Virus record (IMG/VR): IMGVR_UViG_3300050166_000025
Location: 62,001-126,000 of that record
Reading direction: 5' to 3' (one strand)
Length of the DNA: 64,000 bases
Source of the DNA: a virus
Shown: positions 3 through 62,725 of the stretch, one piece after another
How positions within the stretch are numbered: the stretch's first letter is position 1
Layout of the letters: every line of letters starts with the position of its first letter
Notes under the pieces: generated by a model
Told to the model about the DNA's origin: nothing
Seen by the model: the letters and a program-made list of their open reading frames with translations, nothing else
Databases searched by the model: none
Position numbers and translations under genes: made by a program

Positions 3-953
3 TTATAGTTTATTAAATTTGTAACCTTCTGTGTTTATTGCGGCCTGACTTTTTTTACGGCTCGTAAGCTGTTGAGCTGGCAATCCTGTATTTGCAAATT
101 GTCTTATCAGAGTTATATTGAAATTGAATTCATTGACTATTGCATGTAAACCTTCTCTATACAAAATATTGCCGTCTCTATCTATGATTTCGTATTTATC
201 TCCTGGCTTTTTCTTTCTATTTCTCATTTTTTCAATGAATTCTGGATCTTGCCAATGCTTTTTTATTGTGCTTCCCGCCTTTTCTCTTTTAGCAGGATCT
301 TTGTTGACATCATTCATTTTATTTTTAAATGAAATACGTTCTTCTTCACTCATATTTTCATATCTCTTGATGCCTCTTTCGCTAGCAACATTCGGATTAT
401 TCTTAAAGTATTCTTTCATCTGTTCAGACTTTATTAATTTAAGTTCATCTGTCCAATTCTCTTTATTGATCTCGCATCTTTTTTCGTACTGTTCTTCGCT
501 TAAATTGTCCCATCCCTTTTTTGATCTTCGGCCCTGTTCTTCGGATGACAATTTTTTCATAGATTCAGATCTTTTTTTACAAAAAGAATCATATTTTTCC
601 TTGTCGTTTTTAAGTGTTTCCCATCCCTTCTTCGCTGCAGCCGAAACCAAATCAGAATCTTTATAAACTTTAGAGTTCATAAAATTAAGAGTGCGTTGAT
701 ACGCCCTATTATTGTAAGCTTTAAATAAGATTTCATGAGCCTTAATGTGATCTTCATATTTCAACCTTATCATATTCCAACTTTCAGTAATGTATTCAGG
801 ATACTTTGACCTTGGCAATATATGATGAACTTCCGAATATGATTCGTTATCGTATGTGTAATTTAATAAAAAATCAATGTATTCTTCTAAATGAAGAGGT
901 GAATCTGGAAAACCTTCTGTTGATATAAAGATATTGTAAATTTCGTCTTTCAT
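3..953 (-). CDS. HNH homing endonuclease with repeated DNA-binding modules
   Basis: 316-residue protein. An HNH nuclease core is visible at residues 41-75: His43-His44, Asn60, His69 and His73 in the usual spacing (EVHHILPRSK, then WNMIRL, then DHIKAHEIL). Residues 85-250 carry short charged repeats built around W/L-S-E-E-x and KKGW/KKHW words, like the NUMOD DNA-binding modules of phage homing endonucleases. The C-terminus (residues 250-316) looks like a NUMOD1/helix-turn-helix segment. Such enzymes nick or cut an uninvaded allele so that the element spreads. The gene lies 36 bases after the stop of a uvsW that lacks its last helicase motifs, so it probably belongs to an element inserted in uvsW. 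The start is preceded by AATATATA plus 4 nt. Family is clear; target and activity are inferred. Confidence 0.85.
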   Translation of the reverse strand: MKDEIYNIFISTEGFPDSPLHLEEYIDFLLNYTYDNESYSEVHHILPRSKYPEYITESWNMIRLKYEDHIKAHEILFKAYNNRAYQRTLNFMNSKVYKDSDLVSAAAKKGWETLKNDKEKYDSFCKKRSESMKKLSSEEQGRRSKKGWDNLSEEQYEKRCEINKENWTDELKLIKSEQMKEYFKNNPNVASERGIKRYENMSEEERISFKNKMNDVNKDPAKREKAGSTIKKHWQDPEFIEKMRNRKKKPGDKYEIIDRDGNILYREGLHAIVNEFNFNITLIRQFANTGLPAQQLTSRKKSQAAINTEGYKFNKL

Positions 954-957
954 ATAC

Positions 958-965
958 TATATATT
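958..965 (-). promoter_or_regulatory. AATATATA box, 4 nt before start of HNH gene
   Basis: AATATATA followed by GTAT and the ATG at 953. The box is like the T4 late-promoter core (TATAAATA). At this spacing RNA would start at or next to the A of the ATG, giving a leaderless transcript. Promoter function is inferred from recurrence. Confidence 0.55.
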
Positions 966-4178: not shown

Positions 4179-5132
4179 TTAACCTAAGTCTAGGTCATTT
4201 AAGAATGCATCTAAGTCATCACCTGCGTCATCATTAGAAGATGAGCTGGATAAACCTGTCTCAGATGGAGCACCTAATTCAAAAGAATCAATGTTTGCAT
4301 TACCTGATGAGACTGCAGCTGCTTCTCTAACTGGAGCTGCTTTTTGTGCTCGTGGTTTATTTACGATGTCTTCCATCGCAGAGCCTGGGTTTAAATACTG
4401 ACGTAAGATTGAGTTTACAAAATCACGAGTTTGATCATCCCATACTTTATACTCATAAGGCTCTAATAAAGGAGCTTTGTCTAATTCTGCTTTAATAACC
4501 GACATGTTCTCTTTGGTCTTTTCAGCTGGAGAACCATCTACTAAGATAGCGCTCTTGCTTGGAGAGAATTTAGACTTATCATAGTTATTATAATCATTTT
4601 GACGAGTGATGATTAACTCAAAGTTCTTGCCTTCGAATAAATCGAATACTTGAGTTGGCTCGCCGAATGCTGGCTTTAATTCCTCGTCAATCTTCTCTTT
4701 GATTTTGTAACCAAATTTGAAGATTTTATACGTGCCTTCAAACTCTGGAAATTGAGGGTCTTTGATAACTTTAACTAATGCGTAATATTGTTCACGACGC
4801 TTTAATTGCTCGGACATCTTACGGTCTACTGCTGAATCACTTTTACGTAATTTGAAGAATGCATCTGCGATTGGGCACTTATCTCCGATTGAAGATGGTG
4901 AATCAACTAATTTACCTTCGCCACCTGCATCTTTCAGCCAGTGTACATACTTTTTAACTAATGAATTGCGAGGGTTTGCTGGGTTTGGAACAAAGCGAAT
5001 CAATGCTTTATAGGTTCCGTCTTTGCCTTGTTCGGCATCTGGTTTGTACAAGTCGTTGCTTCCTGTTGAAGCTGCTTGTTTGTGTGTGTCTACGTCATCA
5101 ACTCCTAGGTTGAAAATGTCAAAATCTGCCAT
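4179..5132 (-). CDS. 32: single-stranded DNA-binding protein gp32
   Basis: 317 residues, near the T4 gp32 length. gp32 coats ssDNA during replication, recombination and repair. The core shows the conserved words KYVHWLKD (about residues 61-68), a Tyr/Lys-rich binding cleft (YKIFKFGYKIKEK) and IITRQNDYNNYDKS. The tail is the expected acidic arm (DDAGDDLDAFLNDLDLG), which in T4 recruits partner proteins. The region that in T4 holds the His-Cys3 zinc site keeps only the His and one Cys (DKCPIADAF); the other two cysteines are absent, so zinc binding is probably lost. Codons are well suited to high expression, with few rare triplets. Confidence 0.9.
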   Translation of the reverse strand: MADFDIFNLGVDDVDTHKQAASTGSNDLYKPDAEQGKDGTYKALIRFVPNPANPRNSLVKKYVHWLKDAGGEGKLVDSPSSIGDKCPIADAFFKLRKSDSAVDRKMSEQLKRREQYYALVKVIKDPQFPEFEGTYKIFKFGYKIKEKIDEELKPAFGEPTQVFDLFEGKNFELIITRQNDYNNYDKSKFSPSKSAILVDGSPAEKTKENMSVIKAELDKAPLLEPYEYKVWDDQTRDFVNSILRQYLNPGSAMEDIVNKPRAQKAAPVREAAAVSSGNANIDSFELGAPSETGLSSSSSNDDAGDDLDAFLNDLDLG

Positions 5133-5227
5133 GTCTTTAATACTTTAAGTTTCTTTGAAAATTGTTAATTTCGTTAATCTGTTTAGGCCTTAAACTTTAA
5201 TAACTGTAATTTATACAGGAATACTCT

Positions 5228-5437
5228 CTATTGTTTCACTATCATACTCAGAATTTCACCAGAAGGCGCTTCATACTTGCCGGCCTCTATTTTAGTTAAG
5301 CCTGCTTTCCATAGAAGCTGTTCCATTTCAGTACCTAACAGTTTACCTGATAAGTGCATCTTGTTTAGTAATTCATATAGTTGAAAGTACTCTCCGGTGG
5401 TTAATTCGGGTTGATTGGATTGATATTGATTTTCCAT
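5228..5437 (-). CDS. small hypothetical protein
   Basis: 69 residues, not recognised. Mostly helical (GEYFQLYELLNKMHLSGKL, GTEMEQLLWKAG), ending in a short strand-rich piece. The start is supported by AATATATA four nt before the ATG, the same arrangement found before several other genes here. About 90 bases separate it from gp32 and about 100 from the RuvC-like gene; neither gap shows a further gene. Confidence 0.6.
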   Translation of the reverse strand: MENQYQSNQPELTTGEYFQLYELLNKMHLSGKLLGTEMEQLLWKAGLTKIEAGKYEAPSGEILSMIVKQ

Positions 5438-5441
5438 ATTC

Positions 5442-5449
5442 TATATATT
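5442..5449 (-). promoter_or_regulatory. AATATATA box, 4 nt before start of 69-residue gene
   Basis: AATATATA-GAAT-ATG. Same geometry as the other seven exact copies. Confidence 0.55.
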
Positions 5450-5538
5450 TGTAAATAATTTAAAAATAATCTGAGAATTGTGAAACTATCCCCTAAAGCT
5501 GCTATATAAGATTTGTTCTTCCGGGTTTGAAGGTCTAC

Positions 5539-6195
5539 TTAAAGGGAGGAGATATACTGGGCTAAGAAGTAAGCATCGACTAGATCATCAAAGGGTTTAG
5601 GAACCTTAGTGCCCACTTCAAGTCCTTTCGCAAACTTCCACACTTCTGAGCTTTCAAGACTCTTGTCTCCAAGACTGTTTGCAGTGAAAGCTTCCCATAA
5701 ATCCTTCTTGTTCATTCTACCACCGCCCGCAAACTTTTTAATTGAGGTAGGAGCAACTGTTACAATGTTAAACGGTTTAGCTAAAGGGCTGAAAGCTCTG
5801 TAAAGATTCAACTTAAAGATTGCTGCTCCCGCGGCCAGGTCGATTAGATTATTGGTACCACCTCCGCCGGAACCATAGGAAACACCTTCAAATGCAACAA
5901 TAGTGGGCTTAAAGGGCTCAATTAGTTCAGAGTCCCTAATGATAGAGATAATTTCATCCGAAGAGGTCATATATCTAGTTAGTTTCGACATCTCTTTTTC
6001 AGAGAACTCTTTTGAGGTTTCAAAGCCCGGTTGATATTGAAGTGTAATGTCTTTGCAAGCGGACAGTTCCTCCTGAATTCTAACCTCGGCTTTCGTGCCA
6101 CCTGCTTTAAGGTATGAGATAAACTTAGAGCCCTCTTCTGATTTTAAGAAGATGCCCGGGGAGTTAAGAGAAAAGTCAACAGCAATAATTTGCAT
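5539..6195 (-). CDS. RuvC-like Holliday junction resolvase / RNase H-fold nuclease
   Basis: 218 residues from the ATG at 6195. An upstream TTG would add 14 unrelated residues and overlap the preceding gene. The protein begins with the first RuvC strand and Asp7 (IIAVDFSLNSPG), then Glu103 (VAFEGVSYGSGGGG), the SIKKFAGG loop, and the final acidic pair Asp204/Asp207 (FDDLVDAYFLA). These are the four metal-binding acids of RuvC-type resolvases. T4 itself uses the unrelated gp49 endonuclease VII, so this is probably the phage's junction-resolving enzyme before packaging. The upstream stop and this ATG are joined as TAA-T-ATG, suggesting reinitiation. Confidence 0.8.
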   Translation of the reverse strand: MQIIAVDFSLNSPGIFLKSEEGSKFISYLKAGGTKAEVRIQEELSACKDITLQYQPGFETSKEFSEKEMSKLTRYMTSSDEIISIIRDSELIEPFKPTIVAFEGVSYGSGGGGTNNLIDLAAGAAIFKLNLYRAFSPLAKPFNIVTVAPTSIKKFAGGGRMNKKDLWEAFTANSLGDKSLESSEVWKFAKGLEVGTKVPKPFDDLVDAYFLAQYISSL

Positions 6196-45746: not shown

Positions 45747-46481
45747 TTATATATTCAATAAAAAATCGATAGCGTTTGATAGCAGACCTCTCTCCTCAGT
45801 CGTCTTTTCAATGTGAGGACTCATCGCAATGATATTACCTTTGCCGTACGATGAAAAAACACCGGCTATCTTGCCAATAGAATAATTTTCGCCTGGTAAT
45901 TGCATAGGAACACCCTCTTTAAATTTTAATATGACGTTTATATTCTTATCTAATGATTCTCCTATTGGACCGCCATGATAATCTAATGTAACGCTATTCC
46001 TTGAAGTAGAAAAAATATCTTTTCCCGTCGGCGTTATTTCAAATTCTACTAAAACTTTGTCATCAGTCACTCTGTGCATTGGCATATATGCAGGTTCTGG
46101 CAGATTTGCGTTAGAACTTTTAACGTTAATCATTTTTAAGGACCAGTCATGTCCATAAGATATTAAGTGAAAGCCTGCGCAAACTGCTAATAGTTTGCCA
46201 CCAGATTTAACCCATTCCTTTAACTCTATCGTGCTCTGTTCTTTCATACCGAGTCTTTCCTGAAATGAATCTCCGCCCGGGATAATTAATAGGTCAAGTT
46301 TCTCAAAGTTTTTAAGTTCAAAAGAATCTGAATCTAATTTTACAGGTTCAACCCCTAAATATGTTTCAAAGAAATCATCCCACGCCGAAATAGTAGAGTC
46401 TACTACACCGTTATCATGGTATAAGCCTATTTTCAATTTTGAGTTGGCATTGAATTCCTCGAAAAGTTTAATCTTTTTCAT
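45747..46481 (-). CDS. class I glutamine amidotransferase-like protein with capsid-targeting-like N-terminus
   Basis: 244 residues. BPL_N/GATase1-like fold: LLIIPGGDSF (65-73), the nucleophile elbow AVCAGFHLIS with Cys101, and MSPHIEKT with His223 and Glu225, giving a complete Cys-His-Glu triad. Such proteins release ammonia from glutamine or act as amidases. The N-terminus KIKLFEEFNAN has the capsid-targeting-like hydrophobic/acidic pattern. AATATATA lies 5 nt before the ATG. It may be packaged and cooperate with the amidoligase and ATP-grasp proteins found elsewhere in the window; this is inference. Substrate unknown. Confidence 0.72.
   Translation of the reverse strand: MKKIKLFEEFNANSKLKIGLYHDNGVVDSTISAWDDFFETYLGVEPVKLDSDSFELKNFEKLDLLIIPGGDSFQERLGMKEQSTIELKEWVKSGGKLLAVCAGFHLISYGHDWSLKMINVKSSNANLPEPAYMPMHRVTDDKVLVEFEITPTGKDIFSTSRNSVTLDYHGGPIGESLDKNINVILKFKEGVPMQLPGENYSIGKIAGVFSSYGKGNIIAMSPHIEKTTEERGLLSNAIDFLLNI
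45748..45755 (-). promoter_or_regulatory. AATATATA box, 4 nt before WGGD-domain gene
   Basis: AATATATA-AGCT-ATG at 45743. It overlaps the 3' end of the GATase-like gene. Confidence 0.55.
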
Positions 46482-46494: not shown

Positions 46495-46505
46495 GAAAAA
46501 AGAAA

Positions 46506-46524
46506 AGGACCTTAAAAAGGTCCT
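46506..46524 (-). terminator. rho-independent terminator after 78-residue gene
   Basis: Stem AGGACC/GGTCCT with 7-nt loop, then TTTCTTTTTT on the minus strand. Confidence 0.75.
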
Positions 46525-46553
46525 CTCTATATCAATCAAACAAACAATTATCT

Positions 46554-46790
46554 TTATGATTTTTTAGTTTCTTCGACAACCGGCTTAACGGTTGAGAATA
46601 AGTTATCAACTAAACTGATCAATGAATTTGCTTCTTCTACTTTACGAAGCTGTTCATCTAGAATATCGATAATACCGGGATGTTCTCCGACACCAACCGC
46701 GTTATTCATATAAACATCAATAGTAGCTAGAGCTTCTAGTTTTTGTGCTTCGTATCTGGCTCTAAGAGCATTGATTTTAAGTTGTGACAT
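46554..46790 (-). CDS. small helical hypothetical protein
   Basis: 78 residues. Two predicted helices (INALRARYEAQKLEALATID, then DEQLRKVEEANSLISLVDNL) separated by an HPGI turn, with a Lys-rich end. Looks like a coiled-coil adaptor or assembly factor. A strong hairpin terminator follows the stop at 46506-46524. No recognised family. Confidence 0.58.
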   Translation of the reverse strand: MSQLKINALRARYEAQKLEALATIDVYMNNAVGVGEHPGIIDILDEQLRKVEEANSLISLVDNLFSTVKPVVEETKKS

Positions 46791-46831: not shown

Positions 46832-48244
46832 TTACATTTGAGATATTAGATCATCAATCTGTTTTAACTTGTCTAATAGTTCAGCTTTAGTTGTGCCGCC
46901 GCGCTCTTCAATGTACCACTTTGTAGTTAGTAGTGCCTCTAGAGAATATTTTTTGTCTGTGCCAACAACTGTCATTGTCGTTGGAGAATTCTTCAACTTG
47001 TTTAGGACAAATGTTAAGGCAAAGTCTACGCTCTTCTCATACATTCCTGAGTTGGCTTTAACGAATCTTGCAATAGATCTAATATCGTCGTAGATAGCTA
47101 GGCTATTATCAGGTCGGTTAACCATTGATTTCAGGATGACAGCTGCCGCTAAATTATTGTAGCCCTTATCGGTTAAAGCGGTTCCAATATACTGGGACTC
47201 AAAGGTTACCGTCTTGCCATAATTACCAATCCATCCCATATATAACCAGGTTGCTTTAATTTCATCTCTGTTTGGCAAGACTGTTGCTAGGGTTCCATTG
47301 TCTAGGCTTCTTCTTGCCGTATTACCTGCTAACCAGATTGGATCCATTACGCTTTCATATCGAGTATCCGATGGTTTTCCGTCTACTATCATATCGAAAG
47401 GGCCATATTTTCCACCTCGGTATCTAATTACATGTTGCATATAAGCACTGGACATCCATCTCATTGTGTTATATGACTCTTCAAAGTCATTTCCTCCATG
47501 CTCACCTGGATGTTTATCTGCTTCAGTGAGGGTATTAAAGACTATTCTCTTAAATCTTACAAAGTTAGCGTCTGTCGGGCTATCAAGATACATCTTATAA
47601 GCATTCTTGAATGACTCATCACCTTTTTTCATTAATTGAATTGGTCTGTCTGGCATCCAGTCTGTATTGTCTTCAATAGTAAACCAACCCGGAAGCTTCA
47701 TCGGCACTTTAATTTTCTTAAAGTCCCATGAATTGATCTGCTCTACGGTGTAAGCCGGATTCGTTAAACCAAGCTCAATAGCTAAAGCACTTTCAGTTGT
47801 GGTCTCAAAACCCGGTTGAAAGACATTTTGAGTTGAATTTCTAGGAGCGATAGCATCGGTTTTAGTTAAGCTCTTAATATAATTCATTACATCGGTAGAT
47901 TCCTTGACAGGAACGTGGTTTAGAGCTCGTTGAAAAACACGATTCATTGCCGGAATAGTATCGGAGTTATTAAACAATGCAATATCGAAACCGTCTCGCG
48001 AAATGTGGCAATTCATACATGCGTTACCGTTTGCATCCAAAGAATTAGCATACACCTGTTTTCCATCAATGATAGACTTCTCTAAATTGACAGATAAAAC
48101 TCGAGAATCTAATTGATCAGCCGGATTAGTGTTGTTAGTTTTCACTAGTTCCGGTTTAAAATCAACTACCGGTACGATTTCTTCCGGTTTTGAACACGCG
48201 GTTAAAATCGAGAGAGATGTTGCGAAGATTAATAATTTTTTCAT
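46832..48244 (-). CDS. lipoprotein with cytochrome c-type haem motif
   Basis: 470 residues. The start is a type II signal: MKKLLIFATSLSILTAC with the lipidated Cys17. Residues 60-130 form a cytochrome c-like domain: CMNCH at Cys76, Cys79, His80, and a C-terminal helix ending VMNYIKSL (about 119-126), typical of class I cytochrome c. Met100 or Met120 could be the distal ligand. The remaining 340 residues are helical, with no recognised family. The protein should be an envelope lipoprotein, periplasmic or surface. A phage-borne c-type cytochrome is unusual; roles could include entry exclusion or redox. Promoter-like 34-bp element at 48266-48299 lies just upstream. Signal and haem motif are clear; function is not. 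Confidence 0.78.
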   Translation of the reverse strand: MKKLLIFATSLSILTACSKPEEIVPVVDFKPELVKTNNTNPADQLDSRVLSVNLEKSIIDGKQVYANSLDANGNACMNCHISRDGFDIALFNNSDTIPAMNRVFQRALNHVPVKESTDVMNYIKSLTKTDAIAPRNSTQNVFQPGFETTTESALAIELGLTNPAYTVEQINSWDFKKIKVPMKLPGWFTIEDNTDWMPDRPIQLMKKGDESFKNAYKMYLDSPTDANFVRFKRIVFNTLTEADKHPGEHGGNDFEESYNTMRWMSSAYMQHVIRYRGGKYGPFDMIVDGKPSDTRYESVMDPIWLAGNTARRSLDNGTLATVLPNRDEIKATWLYMGWIGNYGKTVTFESQYIGTALTDKGYNNLAAAVILKSMVNRPDNSLAIYDDIRSIARFVKANSGMYEKSVDFALTFVLNKLKNSPTTMTVVGTDKKYSLEALLTTKWYIEERGGTTKAELLDKLKQIDDLISQM

Positions 48245-48265: not shown

Positions 48266-48299
48266 GGTAAATATAACAATAATTTCCGAAATAAAAAAA
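48266..48299 (-). promoter_or_regulatory. 34-bp promoter-like element, cytochrome-like lipoprotein gene
   Basis: T-run, then CGG, then GTTATATTTACC, total 34 bp, ending 21 nt before the ATG. TATATTTA resembles the Bacteroidota -7 box TAnnTTTG and the T-run lies at a -33-like distance. One of five copies with fixed spacing. Confidence 0.62.
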
Positions 48300-48316: not shown

Positions 48317-49246
48317 TCAAACAAAACCATAATCTTTTGTATATTTAATTAGAGATCTCTCCTTAGCTTTAGCCTCCAGTTCAATGTCTAGATCTAGGCC
48401 GTAGGTGTTAATCTCTTCATATATATAGTCTGCATGTGCTCTAATAATTGAAGTTGCATCCTCGTGTAGTTTCTTAGAAGAGGAGTAGTGTGTTAGCTGA
48501 TTAACGTTTTCAGGCCATGTTTTAGCCGCAAGCTTAATGGCCTGCTCCTCACTTAAGTCTCCTGGATTGCATGAATGATGAAGATAGTCAAAGGTGATTG
48601 GTAATCTGGCACCGCCTAAGTGCATTCCGTCATACAAGTCCTGTACTGTATACTGAGCCGGCTTGTCATCATTCTCAATCACTAGTCTATTAGCTGCATT
48701 TTCTGGAAGTCGCTTGAAGTTTTCACAGAAGCGTTGTAAGGTAGTTACCTTATCGCCGTATGTGCCACCTATGTGAATATTAATCGCCGCATAAGGAGTG
48801 CGTGGTTGCCCTAAAAGATCCATGATTTCACCATGCTGTCGCAAGTCTTTAATTGCTTTTACGACAATCAGTTCCGATGGAGAGGCTAGAACATTATATG
48901 GACCTGGATGAAAGGTTAAGCGCTGCCCATACTCCTTGGCTAATTGACCCACCTTCTTGGCCTGAGCCTTAATCAGTTCGTAACCTGGCAAGTCTACTAT
49001 TTCATACTCTGACATCCATGGAAACATATCACTTGACATTCGGTACAGCGTAATGCCTCTGCGATGGTTCCATTCCAGGATTTGCTCCATATCGGTTAGG
49101 TTTTTAAGCGCTAGTTCCGACGCGTATGCAATACCTTTCAACAAGAAAGTCTTTTTAACCATTGACCGGTTACACGTTATTTTCTGGGTTTCCTGTAGAT
49201 CTAGGTTGATGCAGCAATAGCCTAGGGTTGAGCCTTTTCTTTTCAT
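48317..49246 (-). CDS. uvsE: UV DNA damage endonuclease UvsE/UvdE
   Basis: 309 residues from the ATG at 49246; a longer start at 49306 would overlap the upstream gene by 59 nt and add unrelated residues. UvdE enzymes nick 5' of UV photoproducts using a TIM barrel with metal ions. Seen: GYCCINLDLQ near the start, LYRMSSDMFPW, LTFHPGPYNVLASP, INIHIGGTYGDK, LVIENDDK, ITFDYLHHSCNP and QLTHYSSSK, in the usual order with the His/Glu/Asp metal ligands. T4 uses a different enzyme (DenV). TAA-T-ATG couples it to 49248-49670. Confidence 0.88.
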   Translation of the reverse strand: MKRKGSTLGYCCINLDLQETQKITCNRSMVKKTFLLKGIAYASELALKNLTDMEQILEWNHRRGITLYRMSSDMFPWMSEYEIVDLPGYELIKAQAKKVGQLAKEYGQRLTFHPGPYNVLASPSELIVVKAIKDLRQHGEIMDLLGQPRTPYAAINIHIGGTYGDKVTTLQRFCENFKRLPENAANRLVIENDDKPAQYTVQDLYDGMHLGGARLPITFDYLHHSCNPGDLSEEQAIKLAAKTWPENVNQLTHYSSSKKLHEDATSIIRAHADYIYEEINTYGLDLDIELEAKAKERSLIKYTKDYGFV

Positions 49247-49247
49247 A

Positions 49248-49670
49248 TTAATATTCTTTTTCAAATGTGTACCAGTGGTCAGCACTAGCGCACTCACGCA
49301 TAGCATCTGAGATTAAGCCGTTTAAATCTGTGCCAGATAGAGTGCTCATGAAATGGTCACCTAGAGCAATTGCATCTTTCGTCGCAGTATTATCTTCATT
49401 GTATGGCTCGATGCCAGCTTCACGTAGTGCTTGATTGACCGCACCTGAGACAGCTGATAATAAACGAGCAGCTACATCTTCGTTGTTTTGAAAGCGGCGG
49501 CCTTCATAGTAATCATCCTGTGGCCAGGTCTTCACTAATTCATTATATGAATAGCGTAATCTAAATACTGAAACTGCGTTCTCGATGAATGCTATGTGTT
49601 TACGAACTGAACCGTAATAGGAGATACCGTTGGCTTTGATAGACTTAGGATCGATTGTTAATATTGTCAT
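49248..49670 (-). CDS. hypothetical protein
   Basis: 140 residues, not recognised. Acidic, mainly helical, with Trp/Tyr-rich words (KTWPQDDYYEGRRFQNNEDV) and Ala-rich helix (LLSAVSGAVNQALREAG). No metal-binding or nucleotide motif. Coupled to uvsE through TAA-T-ATG, so probably early expressed; its upstream 34-bp promoter-like element is at 49694-49727. Confidence 0.6.
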   Translation of the reverse strand: MTILTIDPKSIKANGISYYGSVRKHIAFIENAVSVFRLRYSYNELVKTWPQDDYYEGRRFQNNEDVAARLLSAVSGAVNQALREAGIEPYNEDNTATKDAIALGDHFMSTLSGTDLNGLISDAMRECASADHWYTFEKEY

Positions 49671-49743: not shown

Positions 49744-50319
49744 TTAAAATCTTTTCCAGTGCTTAAAGGCCAGCTGGATCTCTTCGTCGACTGGGCCTTT
49801 GTGTGATGTAGTTGGTTTTGGGTTGTAATTGATCCGGGTTTGCACGGGTTCTGGTTTAGGCTGCAGGATAACTTTAATCATTCTAATGATTTTATCTGCG
49901 TGTAAACGAGTGATGGTGCCGGCTTCCACTTTTGCGTTTAACCAACGTTCTGCTCTTGCCTGGCCTAAGCTTTCCCATAAATCTGTAGCACGCTTGCCTA
50001 TCTCCTCGATCTGTTCTGGAGTCACATATAACGAGTGAGTTGAAACGCTAGCGGTCAGCTTTACCTTTTCAGTAGAAGACTTGCCCATTCTTAAGCCTCG
50101 TAGTGTGCCAAAACCAGCACGACTTGATAGCTTATGAAACTCAGCCGCTACTTCAGGGTCTTTCACCACCTCAATAGTGTTACCGGTCTTATGGTTGATG
50201 ATAGGCACTGAGCTCCATCTTGATTCGGAGGTGCAGCTAACACAGTGCTCGGTGTTAGGAATAATCAGGAGGCGGGCTTCAGAGATAGATTGGCCACATG
50301 ATTTACAAGGTTTACTCAT
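49744..50319 (-). CDS. DksA/TraR-like zinc-finger protein
   Basis: 191 residues from the ATG at 50319. Longer in-frame starts would run through the terminator and promoter upstream. The four-cysteine finger Cys5-x2-Cys8 and Cys26-x2-Cys29 (CKSC...CVSC) is of the DksA/TraR type, which acts on RNA polymerase via the secondary channel. But DksA-type coiled-coil tips are not obvious; the rest is basic and helical (TDLWESLGQARAERWLNAKV). It may be a transcription or DNA-binding regulator. A 34-bp promoter-like element lies 15 nt upstream. Confidence 0.58.
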   Translation of the reverse strand: MSKPCKSCGQSISEARLLIIPNTEHCVSCTSESRWSSVPIINHKTGNTIEVVKDPEVAAEFHKLSSRAGFGTLRGLRMGKSSTEKVKLTASVSTHSLYVTPEQIEEIGKRATDLWESLGQARAERWLNAKVEAGTITRLHADKIIRMIKVILQPKPEPVQTRINYNPKPTTSHKGPVDEEIQLAFKHWKRF

Positions 50320-50333
50320 ATTCTTTTGATATA

Positions 50334-50367
50334 GGTAAATATAAACAAAAAACCCGAGACTAAAAAA
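50334..50367 (-). promoter_or_regulatory. 34-bp promoter-like element, DksA-like gene
   Basis: T6, CGG, then TTTATATTTACC. The T-run and CGG are supplied by the loop and 3' arm of the preceding terminator hairpin (50352-50375), so terminator and promoter share bases. Confidence 0.6.
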
Positions 50368-50405
50368 TCTCGGGTCATTTATTTTCAAAAAAAGTTTAAT
50401 TTATT
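50346..50405 (-). repeat. terminator-promoter intergenic repeat, copy 1
   Basis: About 60 bp nearly identical to 56852-56911: hairpin, then a CATTTATTTTCAAAAAAA tract and TTTAATTTATTT. One-base difference in the A-run and an extra G. Confidence 0.8.
50352..50375 (-). terminator. rho-independent terminator after membrane-protein gene
   Basis: Stem ACCCGAGA/TCTCGGGT, 8-nt loop, T-run on the minus strand. Copy of 56858-56881. Confidence 0.8.
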
Positions 50406-51414: not shown

Positions 51415-52230
51415 TTACAGATTGTGCTTGTCTTTCCATTTACAATTATTGAAATGAGATTGCTTCATTGCGGAAACGCCTCCTATTTTTCCACAATGAG
51501 GGCATTCAATCTTTTCTTGTGGTTTACGTAATTTAATTTTAGTAGACTCAGGAAGAGGTCTTCCTTTTTTCCAAGCATGCATCTTGTCCTTTTGCTCTTG
51601 AGTCATATTTTTCTTAGCCTCTGACATCTTACGCTTAGATTCATCGGAATATACTTCACTTTTACCTTTATTCCATGGAGTTTGCCCCTTATGTGATTCT
51701 GAATTTTTTGCTCTAGATTCAGCCGTGTGCTTTACACCTAAACATCTCTTATTACCTAGCATTTGAAGTCTACATCTTTCTCTGAATTCAGCGTCGTGCT
51801 TTATTCCGGTATTAGCTTTAGATATCTTCAATCTAGTTTCTTCACTGCATTTTCTACCAGTTCTTGATTCTGACATTTTTTTACGCGTTTCTTCGGATAG
51901 TGTAGTTCCTGTAATATCGAATTTGTTTGACGATGCTTTACTTCTATTGTAGAACGCTGGATTTTTACCGACATCAAATTTATGGTGCAGCTTAATTTCA
52001 AAATCAATAGCTTCCTTTTTAGAATCAAACAGTGAAACTACCTTATAAGAATAATTAGTTGGATTTTGCTTTTGATCTAATATAAAATCTTTGTCCATAC
52101 TAGAAGAAAAATAGTGAATTCCTATGTCTTCTGAAGGAATTCTATTACATGACCTGGATCCGTAATAGAATTTACGTAATAACGTGTTAGTTATGCGGTA
52201 TACGTAGTGGTATCGATATTCGTTTTTCAT
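51415..52230 (-). CDS. GIY-YIG homing endonuclease with NUMOD3 repeats and zinc finger
   Basis: 271 residues. The N-terminal 95 residues are a GIY-YIG nuclease (HYVYRITN at 8-15, FYYGSRSCNR at 21-30, and the acidic FEIKLHHKFD near 77-86). Residues 110-235 are repeats of S-E-E-T-x-x-K-M-S-E/K-x-x-x-G (NUMOD3), used to recognise DNA. The end is a CPHC...H...C zinc finger (about 248-267). It stands between phoH and rnhB, a free-standing homing endonuclease like T4 Seg enzymes. Intergenic elements at both its ends form hairpins (see regulatory entries), which may mark the insertion borders. Confidence 0.85.
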   Translation of the reverse strand: MKNEYRYHYVYRITNTLLRKFYYGSRSCNRIPSEDIGIHYFSSSMDKDFILDQKQNPTNYSYKVVSLFDSKKEAIDFEIKLHHKFDVGKNPAFYNRSKASSNKFDITGTTLSEETRKKMSESRTGRKCSEETRLKISKANTGIKHDAEFRERCRLQMLGNKRCLGVKHTAESRAKNSESHKGQTPWNKGKSEVYSDESKRKMSEAKKNMTQEQKDKMHAWKKGRPLPESTKIKLRKPQEKIECPHCGKIGGVSAMKQSHFNNCKWKDKHNL

Positions 52231-55836: not shown

Positions 55837-56571
55837 TTATGGTATAATTGTCATTCCACTTAACTTCAACATCACATCGGCGGTTGCCTTAATGTCTCTC
55901 TCGCAATACTCCATGATTTGTTGAATGTTGCCTTTATAGAATTCAGCGCTCACTTGTCCACCTTCCATCTGCTCTTTTGGTGAAGGAATTCCTAACATCT
56001 CACAGATAACACCAAGTTTAGCTCCATTCCAGCCACCAAATTTCCAAACATCAGCTGTATCTAATAAGCAGCTGTCCCATGGTTTCACTTTCTGCATGTG
56101 AAGTTGCTTTGGCAGTTCAATCCCATGAATCATCGCTCGTTTACAGATATAAGGCACGTCAAAGCCTTTAATATTATGACCAACTAATTTGACACCAGGT
56201 GCCTTAAAGAAGATGGCGGTGAGCACTTGTAAAAATTCTTTAAGCAACTCTTTCTCATCATCTCCATAGAACGAGCGGGCTTTGAAATCACTCGCGGGAC
56301 CTTCTTCATCAAACTTAACTTGTCCCATTGAGATACAGACTATCCGGCCCCATTCTGGGAATAGAGCAGCCTGAATGTTATAGATTTCAGCTTCATTCTT
56401 ATCCTCTAATTCAGGCCTGTCTTTACGAATAAACATGCACTTTTCTGCCCACCAAGAAGCCATTTGAGAATTAGCAGATAGTGACAGCTTAAACTCCTCG
56501 TAATCTGAATGCGAAGCAGACGTTTCAATGTCTATGAATAACATCTGTTTTAATTCATCTTGTCTATACAT
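55837..56571 (-). CDS. 3'-5' exonuclease, DnaQ/PolB-proofreading type
   Basis: 244 residues. The DEDD signature is present: FIDIETS with Asp14/Glu16, GHNIKGFDVPYI (about 138-149), and YCERDIKATADV near the end. Between them PEWGRIVCISMGQ and KPWDSCLLDTADVWKFGG are typical of the PolB-related stand-alone 3'-5' exonuclease group (as annotated in many phages). It may repair mismatches or trim DNA/RNA ends. The start overlaps the stop of 56571-56822 by one base (TAATG). Confidence 0.82.
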   Translation of the reverse strand: MYRQDELKQMLFIDIETSASHSDYEEFKLSLSANSQMASWWAEKCMFIRKDRPELEDKNEAEIYNIQAALFPEWGRIVCISMGQVKFDEEGPASDFKARSFYGDDEKELLKEFLQVLTAIFFKAPGVKLVGHNIKGFDVPYICKRAMIHGIELPKQLHMQKVKPWDSCLLDTADVWKFGGWNGAKLGVICEMLGIPSPKEQMEGGQVSAEFYKGNIQQIMEYCERDIKATADVMLKLSGMTIIP

Positions 56572-56822
56572 TATTTTTCTTCTTTAGTGATATCGAAAAT
56601 TGAAATTGGGTAGAACATTTCTGGCTTACCCATTCGGTCTGCCATTTGCTGATCTAGCTTAACGCTAAACTTATACCATTTATACCCATATTGTTTTGTC
56701 AAGTCCTTTAACTCCTCTACCAGGACTCCGGTTTTGGTCATAAACCCAGCGTGTAAGAATTGATAGGTCTTACCAACCTTTGGATTTGGGACCGTGATAA
56801 CTTTGGTTTGCTTCTTTGACAT
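56571..56822 (-). CDS. small hypothetical protein
   Basis: 83 residues from the ATG at 56822; the in-frame extension upstream runs through a terminator/promoter repeat and is rejected. A beta-rich protein (TKVITVPNPKVGKTYQFLHA, then YKWYKFSVKLDQQMADRMG). Not recognised. Its 34-bp promoter-like element at 56840-56873 is the fifth copy of that element. One-base overlap with the exonuclease gene suggests cotranslation. Confidence 0.58.
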   Translation of the reverse strand: MSKKQTKVITVPNPKVGKTYQFLHAGFMTKTGVLVEELKDLTKQYGYKWYKFSVKLDQQMADRMGKPEMFYPISIFDITKEEK

Positions 56823-56839
56823 ATTGCTGTTGTTTATAA

Positions 56840-56873
56840 GGTAAATATAACTAAAAAACCCGAGACTAAAAAA
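56840..56873 (-). promoter_or_regulatory. 34-bp promoter-like element, 83-residue gene
   Basis: T6, TCTCGGG, then GTTATATTTACC; fused with the terminator at 56858-56881 exactly as at 50334-50375. Confidence 0.6.
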
Positions 56874-56911
56874 TCTCGGGTCATTTATTTTCAAAAAAAT
56901 TTAATTTATTT
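56852..56911 (-). repeat. terminator-promoter intergenic repeat, copy 2
   Basis: See 50346-50405. Both copies sit in front of a gene carrying the 34-bp element and behind a short operon. The in-frame extensions upstream of both following genes translate to a shared false N-terminus. Confidence 0.8.
56858..56881 (-). terminator. rho-independent terminator after 78-residue gene 56906-57142
   Basis: Stem ACCCGAGA/TCTCGGGT, the same sequence as 50352-50375. Confidence 0.8.
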
Positions 56912-57142
56912 TATGGAGTGTAAGGGATCGTTCCAGCTCCTGGCTCTTCTAACCTTTGCGTAAGACTCATAGTTAAGATGAACCGCCGCATATCCACCGG
57001 TTACCGAGTATGGAACATCGTGTTCTGAATACCAGTACGCCGGTGCCTCGCTGATTCTGTCATTTAGAAAGTCAAACAGCTCATCAATCTGCATGTGATG
57101 CACATAAATAGTTACAGTCATATTTGAGTTAGGGTATGCCAT
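56906..57142 (-). CDS. small hypothetical protein
   Basis: 78 residues, beta/alpha mix (VTIYVHHMQIDELFDFLND, then GGYAAVHLNYESYAKVRRAR), not recognised. The two His near residues 14-15 are not part of a known motif. It lies directly behind the ATP-grasp gene (one-base overlap) and ahead of a terminator hairpin at 56858-56881, so it is the last gene of that unit. Confidence 0.58.
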   Translation of the reverse strand: MAYPNSNMTVTIYVHHMQIDELFDFLNDRISEAPAYWYSEHDVPYSVTGGYAAVHLNYESYAKVRRARSWNDPLHSIK

Positions 57143-58095
57143 TATTTTTTAACCTGCCAGTTAGGATTTTGTTTTTGATTCTGTTTAATATCTTGCTGTC
57201 TAAATTCTTGTAGGAGCTTAGAGGTCTCGTCGGATAGTTGTGTCTCGTACCAGTCCTCGTAAATTCTCTCATATACCAGAGCCATTACTCCGAATAGAGC
57301 ACCAGGCTCTGAATTAATCTCGAACACATAGACTTTATCGTCCTCTGTCTTTGCAATATCGATCGCATAGAAGTCCAGGTCCGAGTGGTAGTCTCCAAAG
57401 TATGCAATGCATTTTAAGAAATCATCCCCTGGGGTCTCTTCTCTTAAAATATAAGCGAAATTAGTCTCCTTGTCCTCGGCCTTCTTAGCAATATCCTTTG
57501 TCTCATCATCCATTGGCTTTCTCTCTGCCCATTGAATTACTTCACTTCTCCACACAAAGAACCTATGCTCCTCTTTAATCTTAATCTTTTCAGAAAAGGA
57601 TGAGAATTGAGACAGGTCTACGCTATCCATGCTCTCTGGTGTTTCAAATACTTTAATACCTAAACCGCTATGATTATTATCTGGTTTTGCAACCACCGGA
57701 AAGTTAAGGTCTTTAACTGCTTTAGGATCTAAGACCGTAGGAATAATAAAACCTGATTTAGCGTGAGCCTTGTAAAACTCAGCCTTCGAGCTAACCTTCT
57801 CTCTTGCTTGCAGTTTATTATAAACCTGATTGTCTCTGATAGCGCCAGCCTTGATCATTTTCTCAAGCGTCTTTCTATCGTAGTTTAAGACAGGAAGATC
57901 TTTCGGCACCGTAATAGGCTCATCTCCGCGGGTAATAATAGTCCAGTACTCATGAGTTGAATACTCTGGGCCCGTGATAAACGAGTCATCCAGATCAGCT
58001 CTACGAGTAATCATTACTTTCTGGAACTCTGATCTTACAAATGCTTCATTCACAAATTGGTCAAATGATAATATCTTAGTATTGAGTGCTCTCAT
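57142..58095 (-). CDS. ATP-grasp ligase with capsid-targeting-like N-terminus
   Basis: 317 residues. ATP-grasp signs: FPVVAKPDNNHSGLGIKVF (132-150, the ATP lysine and Gly-rich loop), AIDIA with Asp246, and VYVFEINSEPGA with Glu259 and Asn261 (metal/ATP). These enzymes join a carboxylate to an amine through an acylphosphate, as in RimK or glutathione synthesis. The N-terminus SFDQFVNEAFVRS (residues 10-22) resembles the capsid-targeting sequence, hinting at packaging. AATATATA plus 4 nt precedes the ATG. Substrate unknown; possible partners are the GATase- and amidoligase-like proteins. Confidence 0.75.
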   Translation of the reverse strand: MRALNTKILSFDQFVNEAFVRSEFQKVMITRRADLDDSFITGPEYSTHEYWTIITRGDEPITVPKDLPVLNYDRKTLEKMIKAGAIRDNQVYNKLQAREKVSSKAEFYKAHAKSGFIIPTVLDPKAVKDLNFPVVAKPDNNHSGLGIKVFETPESMDSVDLSQFSSFSEKIKIKEEHRFFVWRSEVIQWAERKPMDDETKDIAKKAEDKETNFAYILREETPGDDFLKCIAYFGDYHSDLDFYAIDIAKTEDDKVYVFEINSEPGALFGVMALVYERIYEDWYETQLSDETSKLLQEFRQQDIKQNQKQNPNWQVKK

Positions 58096-58130: not shown

Positions 58131-59996
58131 TTAGGAGTTTAATTGTATTTTTTTAATTGTATTTTTCAATTCTTCTATTTGCGCCTGTTGTTCTTTAATA
58201 GCCTCAACTAAAACTGCAACCATATTTTGATATTTAACAGACTTATTGCCGCTCTCATCAGTTACAACCAATTCAGGTATGTTTAATTCCAATTCTTGTG
58301 CAATAAATCCAATGTTATTTTTAGTGCCAGTATCTATTCTATCATAGACCACACCTCTTGATTTTAATATTTTATCTAAAGAACTTTCAATTGGTTTTAT
58401 GTTTTCTTTTACTCTAGCATCTGAAAAAGCAGTAATATCGCCAGAAGCATAAACTTCACCAAATGAAACTTTACCTTGAGCAGAACTCCACACGTCATTA
58501 AAAGTAGATGTAGTAGGAGACACTGAAGCACCATATATAGAATATGTGCTTGTTCTTAGTTGTGGGCTAATTCCATAGTTACAATACATATAATAGATTC
58601 CGCCGCCTCTTACCCACACTACTTCATCAGATGAGTTTGACATTTGCGTGATACCACCAATGGGCGACATTCCAGATACGAATCTATAGTTGTATGATTC
58701 AATAAATCTTATATTATCATTTGTTCCCCATCCGTTACCATTTGCAAACCATATTAATTTAACTGAAAAACCGGCCGGGTGAGATGACCAAGATGGAACA
58801 TTTGAATTCAAGGCAACTCTGATCGATAATTTATATAAAGTATTAGTTCCTAAACCAATTGTAACTGGATAATAAGTATTTACGTCTAATCCTGTAGTGT
58901 TAATAGTATATGAATATTCTATATCTCCATTTACACCGGCTGCTCCATTAGCTCCACTTGAACCTGAGCTTCCCGATGTTCCGTTTAAACCGCTTGAACC
59001 CGAGCTTCCTGAACTACCAGAATTACCAGATGAACCTGAACTACCAGAATTACCAGATGAACCTGAAGTGCCAGATGTTCCTGTTAAACCCGATGAACCA
59101 CTAAATCCTGAAGAACCAGAAGTTCCTGATGAACCTGATGAGCCAGAAGAACCAGATGTACCTGAAGTTCCTGATGAACCACTTGAGCCGGATGTACCAG
59201 ATGTTCCTGTTGTACCAGAAGTACCAGAAGTTCCTGATGAACCACTTGAGCCTGAAGTTCCTGATGAACCAGAAGAACCATTAGTTCCTGAAGAACCTGA
59301 TGTTCCTGCAGTACCATTAGTTCCTGATGAACCGCTTGAACCAGAAGTCCCAGATGTGCCTGTTGTTCCAGAAGTACCTGATGAACCGCTTGAACCAGAA
59401 GTCCCAGATGTGCCTGTTGTTCCAGAAGTACCTGATGAACCGCTTGAACCTGAAGTTCCTGCTGTACCTGATGAGCCAGATGAACCTGGTGTACCACTTG
59501 AACCTGATGTTCCAGAAGTACCTGTTGTACCCGATGTTCCAGAAGAACCATTGGTTCCGCTTGAACCAGAAGTCCCAGATATGCCTGATGTTCCAGTAGT
59601 TCCTGAAGAACCTGAAGTCCCAGATATGCCTGATGTTCCAGTAGTTCCTGAAGAACCTGAAGTTCCGCCTGTACCACTTGATCCAGAAGTTCCTGTTATA
59701 CCTGAAGTCCCATCTGTACCTGAAAAGCCCGATGAACCGGAAGTTCCGGAAGTACCATGCGTACCATGCTCGCCTGTAGTTCCTGAAGAACCTGAAGTAC
59801 CATCAGTACCGCTTGTTCCTGTTAAGCCAGAGCTACCAGATGTACCGCTTGAGCCAGAAGCACCTATTATTCCATCAATACCAGACGTTCCACTGGTACC
59901 TGAACTGCCATTAGCTCCAGAAATAGCAGCTTTATTTTTTAAATTATCTAATTCGGCTTTAAGTCCATCTATTTGATTTATACTAACTCTTGGCAT
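58131..59996 (-). CDS. long Gly-Thr-Ser collagen-like fibre with S74 intramolecular chaperone
   Basis: 621 residues from ATG 59996; an earlier in-frame ATG at 60035 would put the AATATATA box inside the gene. The order is: a 26-residue coiled N-terminus (RVSINQIDGLKAELDNLKNK), then about 330 residues of G-T/S-S repeats (GTSGSSGTSG, GTTGTSGTSG), then a strand-rich knob, and the peptidase S74 domain (about 520-621) with SDARVKENIKPI, IGFIAQELE and AVLVEAIKEQ. S74 proteases cut themselves off after guiding fibre trimerisation. The repeat is a collagen-like shaft with many Ser/Thr and little Pro. Likely a host-binding fibre, next to glycosyltransferase and oxygenase genes. Confidence 0.85.
   Translation of the reverse strand: MPRVSINQIDGLKAELDNLKNKAAISGANGSSGTSGTSGIDGIIGASGSSGTSGSSGLTGTSGTDGTSGSSGTTGEHGTHGTSGTSGSSGFSGTDGTSGITGTSGSSGTGGTSGSSGTTGTSGISGTSGSSGTTGTSGISGTSGSSGTNGSSGTSGTTGTSGTSGSSGTPGSSGSSGTAGTSGSSGSSGTSGTTGTSGTSGSSGSSGTSGTTGTSGTSGSSGSSGTNGTAGTSGSSGTNGSSGSSGTSGSSGSSGTSGTSGTTGTSGTSGSSGSSGTSGTSGSSGSSGSSGTSGSSGFSGSSGLTGTSGTSGSSGNSGSSGSSGNSGSSGSSGSSGLNGTSGSSGSSGANGAAGVNGDIEYSYTINTTGLDVNTYYPVTIGLGTNTLYKLSIRVALNSNVPSWSSHPAGFSVKLIWFANGNGWGTNDNIRFIESYNYRFVSGMSPIGGITQMSNSSDEVVWVRGGGIYYMYCNYGISPQLRTSTYSIYGASVSPTTSTFNDVWSSAQGKVSFGEVYASGDITAFSDARVKENIKPIESSLDKILKSRGVVYDRIDTGTKNNIGFIAQELELNIPELVVTDESGNKSVKYQNMVAVLVEAIKEQQAQIEELKNTIKKIQLNS
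58926..59918 (-). repeat. Gly-Thr-Ser codon repeat array
   Basis: About 330 codons of G-T/S-S units in the fibre gene 58131-59996, with near-identical tandem blocks visible around 59325-59450 and 59560-59660, so recombination within the array is likely. Confidence 0.85.
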
Positions 59997-60020
59997 AACT
60001 CGGGATATATTTGTTTCTTC

Positions 60021-60028
60021 TATATATT
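60021..60028 (-). promoter_or_regulatory. AATATATA box upstream of S74 fibre gene
   Basis: AATATATAG lies 24 nt before the chosen ATG at 59996, so this transcript would have a short leader. Forms a divergent pair with the box at 60049-60056. Confidence 0.45.
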
Positions 60029-60048
60029 TCCGCATTTGTACTCAATAA

Positions 60049-60939: not shown

Positions 60940-62725
60940 AAGTTAAATTTACTCTACCTTCCTGAGCACCATATCTACAAGGAGCATCTATTGGATAAGA
61001 AGGATTAAAGTTATAAGCCCAATCCTCGATGCCGAAATCAATTTCAAATCTTTTCTTAATGTCTTCGTTATAATATTGAGCAATAGTTTTAACTCTTCTC
61101 TGAATGTCAGCTCTGGTTAAGTCCTGTGTATTCATTTCATATCCATCATTATATAAAAATTGAACATATAAAGTTCTAGGAATATGAACCATTGTCGTGT
61201 TTAAGAACGTTCTAACAATTAATTCATAATCATCGGCAATAGTTAAGCCTCTTGCGTGACCACCGATCGCAAAATAAGTGGATCTTCTCCATGCTCTAAT
61301 ATGATTAGGAACTCCAACGATGTGTCTAATTGTTTTTGGATTAACTCCAACCGTAACTGAAGATTGAACCTCTTTTCCGAATACATTATCGGTTCTATAT
61401 GAACCATATCCTAGGGCGAATCCTTCTCCATATATGTTAGAATTCCAGTTTAGATCTACTTCAGGCGCATCTGAGTAAAAGAAGCCTGCCTTTGGAAATT
61501 TAACAGAAGCTTTATATAAATATTCTGCGCAATCCGTTGTAACTATATCGTCATGATCAAGTTCGGCTAAAATTTCACCTCGACTCATACAACATGCTCT
61601 ATACTTAGCTTCGCCTATCAGACCATTCGATTTTTCTCTGAAATCATAAACTTTAACACGTGGATCGAGAGCTGCAATTTCTTCAGCTATCTTTAGAGTT
61701 AAACCCTCGTCAGATGAGTCATTAACTAGAATCCACTCCCAATTTGTATAAGTTTGATTCTTTAATGATTCATAAGTAAACTTTAATTTATCACCTGTAT
61801 TGTGCATTGGCGTAAAGAAAGAGACTAGATTTGCTCTATTAACGCTTAGCATATTCTTCATCGCTAAAGCATACGCCTTTTGTCCAAGAGATTCATCAAT
61901 TGATTCAGCGTTAAGCCACTTTGATTTTATTTCGGATGTTGCATTCCATAAATTTGAAAAAGAACCAGACTGTTTAGAAATAGTTACTATTGCATCTGGA
62001 TTCCAATCTAATAAAATTTCATTAAGGTCGTTATCATTCTTTTCGTATCTGACTTCTAATTCCGAGGATTCCCAGTCCCATGGGTTATCGGTTGTTAATG
62101 TGGGTTCTTCTTTGCCGATGAATAGGATTCGTGGAAGCCTCGCTTTTTTCATAGGTCTTAATGATTCGTGATTAGAAAGAACCTCTTTGCAAAATACAAT
62201 CTCATTGACTAATTCCTTTGCGATCTGCTGAATTAAAATTCCATCGGCGTTAAATTCATTAACGAATTGATATGTGTCGAATAGATCGGTCTTTAAAATA
62301 TACTGTGAACCATCTACATGGCCTGGTCTTAAATTTTGCAAGAATGCATTTCTAAAAGATTTGCCTCCATTGTACGTCTGTGAAAATACAAAGACAGATT
62401 TGTCTTCTATTCTTTCGATAAAGGTGTTATATAATTCTGGATGAAGTTCAGCGTCACCGCTTAACAAGTATATAAAACCTCCTAAGATACCGTTTATGAC
62501 CTCATTGATTGCAATGTACGTGCTACCTCCTTTAATAAAGTGCAGCTTAATATCCGGATGATTCAATTCGTCTAAAACTATTGCTGGAATATCTTTTAGA
62601 ACTGATGTGTCAAAAATTACATGCCACTCGACATTCTTGTCTTCATCTGTAAAAATAGACTTTTTAATTTTAGATAGATCAGCTGTTTTTTTACAGCGGG
62701 TAATTATGTGTAGTTTGTGTTTCAT
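60929..62725 (-). CDS. glycosyltransferase with C-terminal GT2 domain
   Basis: 598 residues. The C-terminal half is a GT-A/GT2 domain: FFTPMHNTGDKLKFTYESL (303-321), LVNDSSDEGL (333-342), and Asp390-His-Asp392-Asp393 (AELDHDD) as the metal-binding motif, with an acceptor-side IRAWRRSTYFAIGG. The N-terminal 190 residues look like another GT-A-like fold (YLLSGDAELHP), followed by a Rossmann-like middle (RILFIGKEEPTL). Such tandem glycosyltransferases add several sugars. Coupled by one base to the 2OG-oxygenase gene. May decorate the Ser/Thr-rich fibre. Confidence 0.78.
   Translation of the reverse strand: MKHKLHIITRCKKTADLSKIKKSIFTDEDKNVEWHVIFDTSVLKDIPAIVLDELNHPDIKLHFIKGGSTYIAINEVINGILGGFIYLLSGDAELHPELYNTFIERIEDKSVFVFSQTYNGGKSFRNAFLQNLRPGHVDGSQYILKTDLFDTYQFVNEFNADGILIQQIAKELVNEIVFCKEVLSNHESLRPMKKARLPRILFIGKEEPTLTTDNPWDWESSELEVRYEKNDNDLNEILLDWNPDAIVTISKQSGSFSNLWNATSEIKSKWLNAESIDESLGQKAYALAMKNMLSVNRANLVSFFTPMHNTGDKLKFTYESLKNQTYTNWEWILVNDSSDEGLTLKIAEEIAALDPRVKVYDFREKSNGLIGEAKYRACCMSRGEILAELDHDDIVTTDCAEYLYKASVKFPKAGFFYSDAPEVDLNWNSNIYGEGFALGYGSYRTDNVFGKEVQSSVTVGVNPKTIRHIVGVPNHIRAWRRSTYFAIGGHARGLTIADDYELIVRTFLNTTMVHIPRTLYVQFLYNDGYEMNTQDLTRADIQRRVKTIAQYYNEDIKKRFEIDFGIEDWAYNFNPSYPIDAPCRYGAQEGRVNLTFTE

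Follow-up and report, generated by a model that had tools for sequence, protein, structure and literature searches.

A conserved c-type cytochrome lipoprotein predicted in a T4-like phage and its possible role at the host envelope

Why would a phage carry a gene that appears to encode a c-type cytochrome, a kind of protein that needs the periplasmic haem-attachment machinery of the host and is rarely reported from phages? The question is raised by one gene in a stretch of 64,000 nucleotides (hereafter the window; positions 62,001 to 126,000 of IMG/VR record IMGVR_UViG_3300050166_000025), for which a preliminary description had proposed a cytochrome c-like lipoprotein. The record is that of a T4-like virus, and its large terminase is nearest to those of large uncultured phages and then to those of Tenacibaculum, Sphingomonas, Flavobacterium, Prevotella and Chryseobacterium phages. 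These terminase relatives, together with the promoter type and the lipoprotein signals described below, point to a Bacteroidota host. Elsewhere in the window are genes for a collagen-like tail-fibre protein with GXX repeats (58131-60035; another is encoded at 839-2752 of locus L006), a probable homing endonuclease with three NUMOD3 motifs (51415-52230, minus strand) and an R2K-clade ATP-grasp protein (57142-58095, minus strand).

The open reading frame and its domains

The gene is a genuine open reading frame of 470 codons on the minus strand, starting with the ATG at 48244 and lying away from the contig ends. The preliminary description had named a lipobox (LTAC), a haem-attachment motif (CMNCH) and a helix segment (YIKSL), and all three are present in the translation, at residues 14-17, 76-80 and 122-126, respectively. 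Across the entire 151,111-base virus record, this is the only ORF of at least 80 amino acids that contains CxxCH. The gene and the parts of its product, in window positions, are the following.

46832..48244, minus strand: gene for the predicted 470-residue c-type cytochrome lipoprotein (ORF and homologues)
48194..48244, minus strand: signal peptide and lipobox, residues 1-17 (MKKLLIFATSLSILTAC), read from the sequence; Pfam LPAM_1 E 0.046, under the cut-off
48179..48193, minus strand: SKPEE, positions +2 to +6 after the lipid-bearing Cys, an imperfect Bacteroidota export signal (compared with C-X-K-(D/E)2-X)
47861..48061, minus strand: haem domain, a compact class I cytochrome c by profile comparisons, about residues 62-128
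48005..48019, minus strand: haem-attachment motif CMNCH (residues 76-80), unchanged in its CxxCH pattern in all 17 aligned haem domains
47915..47917, minus strand: His110, candidate sixth axial ligand, likewise invariant (17 of 17)
46835..47797, minus strand: C-terminal all-helical domain, residues 150-470 (predicted structure and conservation)

Searched alone against Pfam, NCBIfam, PHROG, PDB and INPHARED, the window protein matched no named family, PDB chain or phage, and single phage sequences of the family described below fall short of the Pfam cut-offs. The preliminary description had allowed that the motif might be accidental. It is instead invariant in all the aligned haem domains from phages and cells, and its retention among phage homologues that are otherwise about 45-55% identical, and cellular ones that are about 21-28% identical, argues for conservation beyond chance. 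The 17 domains also share D87, A89, F91, R106, H110, V111, Q143 and P144 (window numbering), in addition to both Cys and the His of CxxCH. Furthermore, a PDB search with the profile of these domains returned mostly c-type cytochromes (best E 1.2e-5), and hhalign aligned the family profile with class I cytochromes c at 94% (E 1.7e-7) over 55 columns that span the domain from its opening helix to its final one, the comparison set being 12 genuine Cytochrome_CBB3 domains from Gemmatimonadota, the phylum of the cellular homologues. When all columns except CxxCH were shuffled, the score of 41 dropped to 15 on average (an average that includes one single-column artefact of 143, otherwise ignored), with a best multi-column score of 28. 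A phage-dominated profile, A7 (five phage rows and one cell row), aligned through the first helix and CxxCH alone, and the end-to-end claim thus leans on the cellular members. Taken together, motif retention and end-to-end alignment uphold the designation 'cytochrome c-like'.

A conserved Met ligand after CxxCH was not found in the 17 aligned domains, and H110 falls, in the alignment, close to the loop that carries the Met ligand in class I cytochromes; from these two observations we infer His/His ligation of the haem. Sixth axial ligands other than Met occur among c-type cytochromes, so the missing Met bears on the sub-class of this domain and not on whether it is c-type. The AlphaFold model of the haem domain alone has a pLDDT of 45 and was not used for a fold search; in the full-length model, pLDDT is below 50 at residues 1-111. 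Comparisons among the phage members give a dN/dS of about 0.04 for the haem domain, against 0.10-0.17 for the C-terminal domain; as synonymous changes are near saturation in several pairs, these values are approximate. By these estimates, strong purifying selection acts on the haem domain in phages.

The preliminary description had left the remainder of the protein to structure prediction, and here the models indicate a genuine conserved domain. Residues 150-470 are predicted to be all-helical, with pLDDT mostly 80-96, and a PDB fold search with the full model gave no match at E <= 0.001. The best fold matches were TPR-like helical repeats, all too weak to pass that threshold, which we rejected as chance.

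A family in phages and Gemmatimonadota

Direct searches with the window protein alone as seed gave no match among viral and genome contigs. Homologues were reached via the neighbouring UvdE gene and then by alignments, which revealed them on six related phage contigs, with CxxCH in all five that extend to the motif region. The homologue in L093 is 43% identical to the window protein and has CMQCH, those in L194/L197, L195 and L196 are 53-54% identical and have CMSCH, and the one in L159 is 54% identical, its motif being lost to the contig end. The lipobox, too, is found in the phage homologues and in nearly all cellular ones. In the loci fetched through UvdE (L093 and L097/L098/L099), the homologue follows UvdE directly or closely; in L194-L197 it has a different neighbourhood, and in a 256-kb relative about 130 kb separate it from UvdE. 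L093 also encodes a secreted thioredoxin-like protein (560-964, plus strand; PF00085 E 4.6e-9) a few genes ahead of its cytochrome gene. The L093 product of 4846-6165 (plus strand) matches NCBIfam LvrD over residues 10-113 (E 1e-6), which we set aside at 28.7 bits, the family cut-off being 200.

One form of the protein has no haem domain. The homologues in L097/L098/L099 are 30% identical to the window protein over its C-terminal part, and that in L163 is haem-less too; the four contigs carry near-identical sequences and represent one genotype. This relative retains the lipid anchor and the C-terminal domain, and its L098 copy keeps the motifs INxWDF, DWMPD, NxMxW, W..G...RRS and W.Y.GWI.NYG. 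Since the cellular homologues bear haem, loss in the L098 lineage is the simpler reading, and this natural haem-less form offers a ready comparison for what the haem does.

The cellular members came to light through a Gemmatimonadota contig (L164) that carries a homologue and pointed to a family in that phylum. In a sample of 200 Gemmatimonadota genomes, 16 have the family, among them Gemmatirosa kalamazoonensis on plasmid NZ_CP007130.1. These proteins share about 21-28% identity with the window protein and keep CxxCH in every member that spans the region, and the C-terminal domain is conserved in them as it is in the phages. The cellular members thus come from Gemmatimonadota rather than from the inferred Bacteroidota host, and capture from the host, one of the origins raised in the preliminary description, is no more than a possibility; the scans of genome contigs used narrow patterns, and closer homologues in the host may exist. 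In a tree, seven phage rows form one group on a long branch, separated from 18 cell rows with 100/100 support. The family, the haem motif, the lipobox and the signature of selection can all be read from the sequences, and on this footing we conclude that the window protein is a real, conserved phage lipoprotein of predicted c-type cytochrome class, belonging to a family without a name in Pfam, NCBIfam and PHROGs.

Insertion site and promoters

The surroundings of the gene, which like its promoter class are a matter of sequence, include the following elements.

48317..49306, minus strand: UvdE-like endonuclease (Pfam UvdE E 1.5e-55), the upstream flanking core gene that marks the insertion site
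48267..48276, minus strand: -7 element of a host-type (early) promoter, TTATATTTAC, located 22 bases ahead of the ATG
46554..46790, minus strand: small gene phrog_1811, downstream border of the insertion site (PHROG and locus comparison)
46503..46527, minus strand: intrinsic terminator-like hairpin after the small gene

The interval between UvdE and phrog_1811 measures 40-47 bases in eight loci and 240-507 bases in 17 more, and it grows to about 1.5-2 kb in loci with the cytochrome gene or its haem-less counterpart; in some loci different sequence occupies it. This is a variable site, and the cytochrome gene has been inserted there. Two small extra ORFs (101 and 94 residues; L097 3138-3782, plus strand) lie at this variable site between UvdE and the haem-less homologue. 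Beyond the small gene, the window encodes an amidotransferase-fold protein resembling DJ-1/PfpI or the biotin-ligase N-terminus (45747-46481, minus strand; BPL_N E 8.7e-9) behind a late-type promoter; in L097/L098, the haem-less relative has a homologue of this protein nearby. Neither the phage loci nor 14 cell loci showed a conserved redox partner gene next to the cytochrome gene.

Two promoter-like motif classes were distinguished in the virus record, RATATATA (late-like) and TTA(T/G)ATTT(A/G)C (host-like). RATATATA has 38 minus-strand copies, 34 of them before gene starts, and five plus-strand copies; because it precedes the sheath gene and other structural genes, we take it as the late promoter. 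The second motif has 11 minus-strand sites, eight of which lie ahead of gene starts, in windows that together cover 14% of the genome, a count that is not wholly independent, as the motif was first noticed ahead of the cytochrome gene. It is close to the sigma-A box of Bacteroidota, TAnnTTTG (PMC9723704). The copy ahead of the cytochrome gene, TTATATTTAC, sits in a block of about 57 bases almost identical to one upstream of genome gene 1759-2706, and a similar promoter block precedes the homologue in L194, L195 and L196. Host-type promoters also stand before a 5'-3' exonuclease gene and a phosphoribosyl-pyrophosphate synthase-like gene, and RATATATA does not occur in the stretch before the cytochrome gene. 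By its promoter class, then, the cytochrome gene is probably expressed early in infection. With these two classes, RATATATA and TTATATTTAC, genes across this phage group could be assigned to early or late expression. In the window, the ORFs at 49744-50388 and 56571-56894 (minus strand) have an almost identical N-terminal peptide, MKINDPRFFSLGFF.YIYL; it probably reflects a terminator-promoter block that is repeated ahead of the true starts.

Proposed role, alternatives and known systems

Considered together, these observations very probably identify an accessory gene of a T4-like Bacteroidota phage for an outer-membrane, likely surface-exposed lipoprotein, in which a compact mono-haem class I cytochrome c domain (CxxCH and an invariant second His, with predicted His/His ligation) is joined to a conserved helical domain of about 320 residues. 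The best overall explanation, to which we assign a probability of roughly 0.7 as a whole, is an early, surface-exposed mono-haem lipoprotein that would modify the host envelope, this role being its weakest part. Host RNA polymerase would transcribe the gene early from its Bacteroidota sigma-A-type promoter, and the precursor would be exported and lipidated. The cytochrome c maturation system of the host would attach the haem, after which the lipoprotein would move to the outer membrane and be turned to face outward. At the surface, the C-terminal domain would bind or alter an envelope component and the haem domain would stabilise or tune it; the likeliest benefit would be to shield the infected cell from further phage adsorption (superinfection exclusion). 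In this scheme we infer haem attachment, ligation, surface exposure and benefit.

An envelope role is favoured by the lipid anchor, the early-type promoter, the accessory site, the missing redox partners and the loss of haem in one lineage. The optimal tested surface-export signal of Bacteroidota lipoproteins is C-X-K-(D/E)2-X (PMC5080379), which L194 (CSKDEL), L195/L196 (CTKDEL) and L093 (CQKEEL) match exactly, and L098 (CQKEGL) matches in part. Against the envelope reading, the signal of the window protein itself, CSKPEE, is imperfect, a partial match displaced by one residue; the haem-domain model has low confidence (the pLDDT of 45 given above); haem loss is limited to a single genotype; and every cellular homologue that spans the region keeps the haem motif. 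Exclusion proteins, to our knowledge, seldom have cellular families. We put exclusion or envelope modification as the role at somewhat below even odds, and we name superinfection exclusion in particular as the leading role only tentatively.

The main rival is a redox auxiliary metabolic gene, whose haem domain would relay electrons from a host donor in the periplasm or outer membrane to an external acceptor or the C-terminal domain, and would in this way assist respiration, detoxification or the removal of peroxide while infection proceeds. Such a role accords with a haem domain that has the lowest dN/dS and a motif that is invariant in cellular and most phage members; indeed, because this domain is the most constrained part where present, redox or ligand chemistry is favoured over a scaffold role. 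The SoxD proteins of phages provide a precedent (PMC8190135). Nevertheless, we judge this rival unlikely on balance: the haem is single, no conserved redox partner gene is adjacent in phage or cell, one phage genotype retains the protein without the haem domain, the C-terminal domain matches no known enzyme, and no Pfam, NCBIfam or PHROG family ties the protein to a recognisable host electron-transfer pathway. The haem domain might otherwise sense NO, CO, O2 or peroxide at the cell surface, with the helical domain signalling or shifting the binding of a partner. A sensor would fit the fusion of a single-haem domain to a helical one without an enzyme match, and also the invariant second His in place of Met, but six-coordinate His/His haem would not readily bind ligands and no signalling domain or partner was found, which makes this improbable.

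The haem-less L098 and its near-identical contigs might instead mean that CxxCH is decorative, the C-terminal domain being the useful part and haem remaining unattached in infected cells. This is quite improbable given that CxxCH and H110 are kept at about 45-55% overall identity, with a dN/dS of about 0.04 in the haem domain. Finally, the existence of cellular members could suggest host DNA misjoined to a phage contig, or a decaying host capture. We reject an assembly error and regard either event as extremely unlikely, because syntenic homologues occur on independent contigs, the phage members form one group with 100/100 support and are under purifying selection, and the promoter block recurs at a second gene of this phage.

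The conservation of such a haem lipoprotein, under purifying selection and with a promoter of the early type, suggests that certain phages invest host haem in the cell envelope. It is conceivable, though doubtful at present, that the protein represents a new surface-anchored haem family common to phages and bacteria, used by phages for early alteration of the host envelope (with exclusion and surface redox chemistry as rival functions) and carrying the haem domain as a removable module.

Known systems resemble the window protein in part. With class I cytochromes c (PF13442 Cytochrome_CBB3 and PF00034 Cytochrom_C) it shares the N-terminal helix G..xF, CxxCH, the C-terminal helix xxVxxYIxSL and profile homology over the whole domain, but it scores under the Pfam cut-offs, is compact, has an invariant His where a conserved Met ligand would be, and is fused to a domain of about 320 residues. 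SoxD on viral contigs is likewise a phage-borne c-type cytochrome domain, some copies of which have no haem motif (PMC8190135); SoxD, however, pairs with SoxC as a defined enzyme, whereas the window protein stands without a partner, is lipid-anchored and belongs to another family. The precedent for an envelope role is Llp of phage T5, a superinfection-exclusion lipoprotein that is also phage-encoded and placed in the outer membrane, exclusion proteins being made early (PMC9586334); compared by description, Llp differs in being small, periplasmic-facing and haem-free. The unnamed lipoprotein cytochromes of Gemmatimonadota differ at about 21-28% identity, the phage members forming a separate long-branched group, yet they share with the window protein the lipobox, CxxCHxSxDGFDxAxF, RRAxxHV, DWMPD, RW, W..G..AR and W.Y.GW, in identical order.
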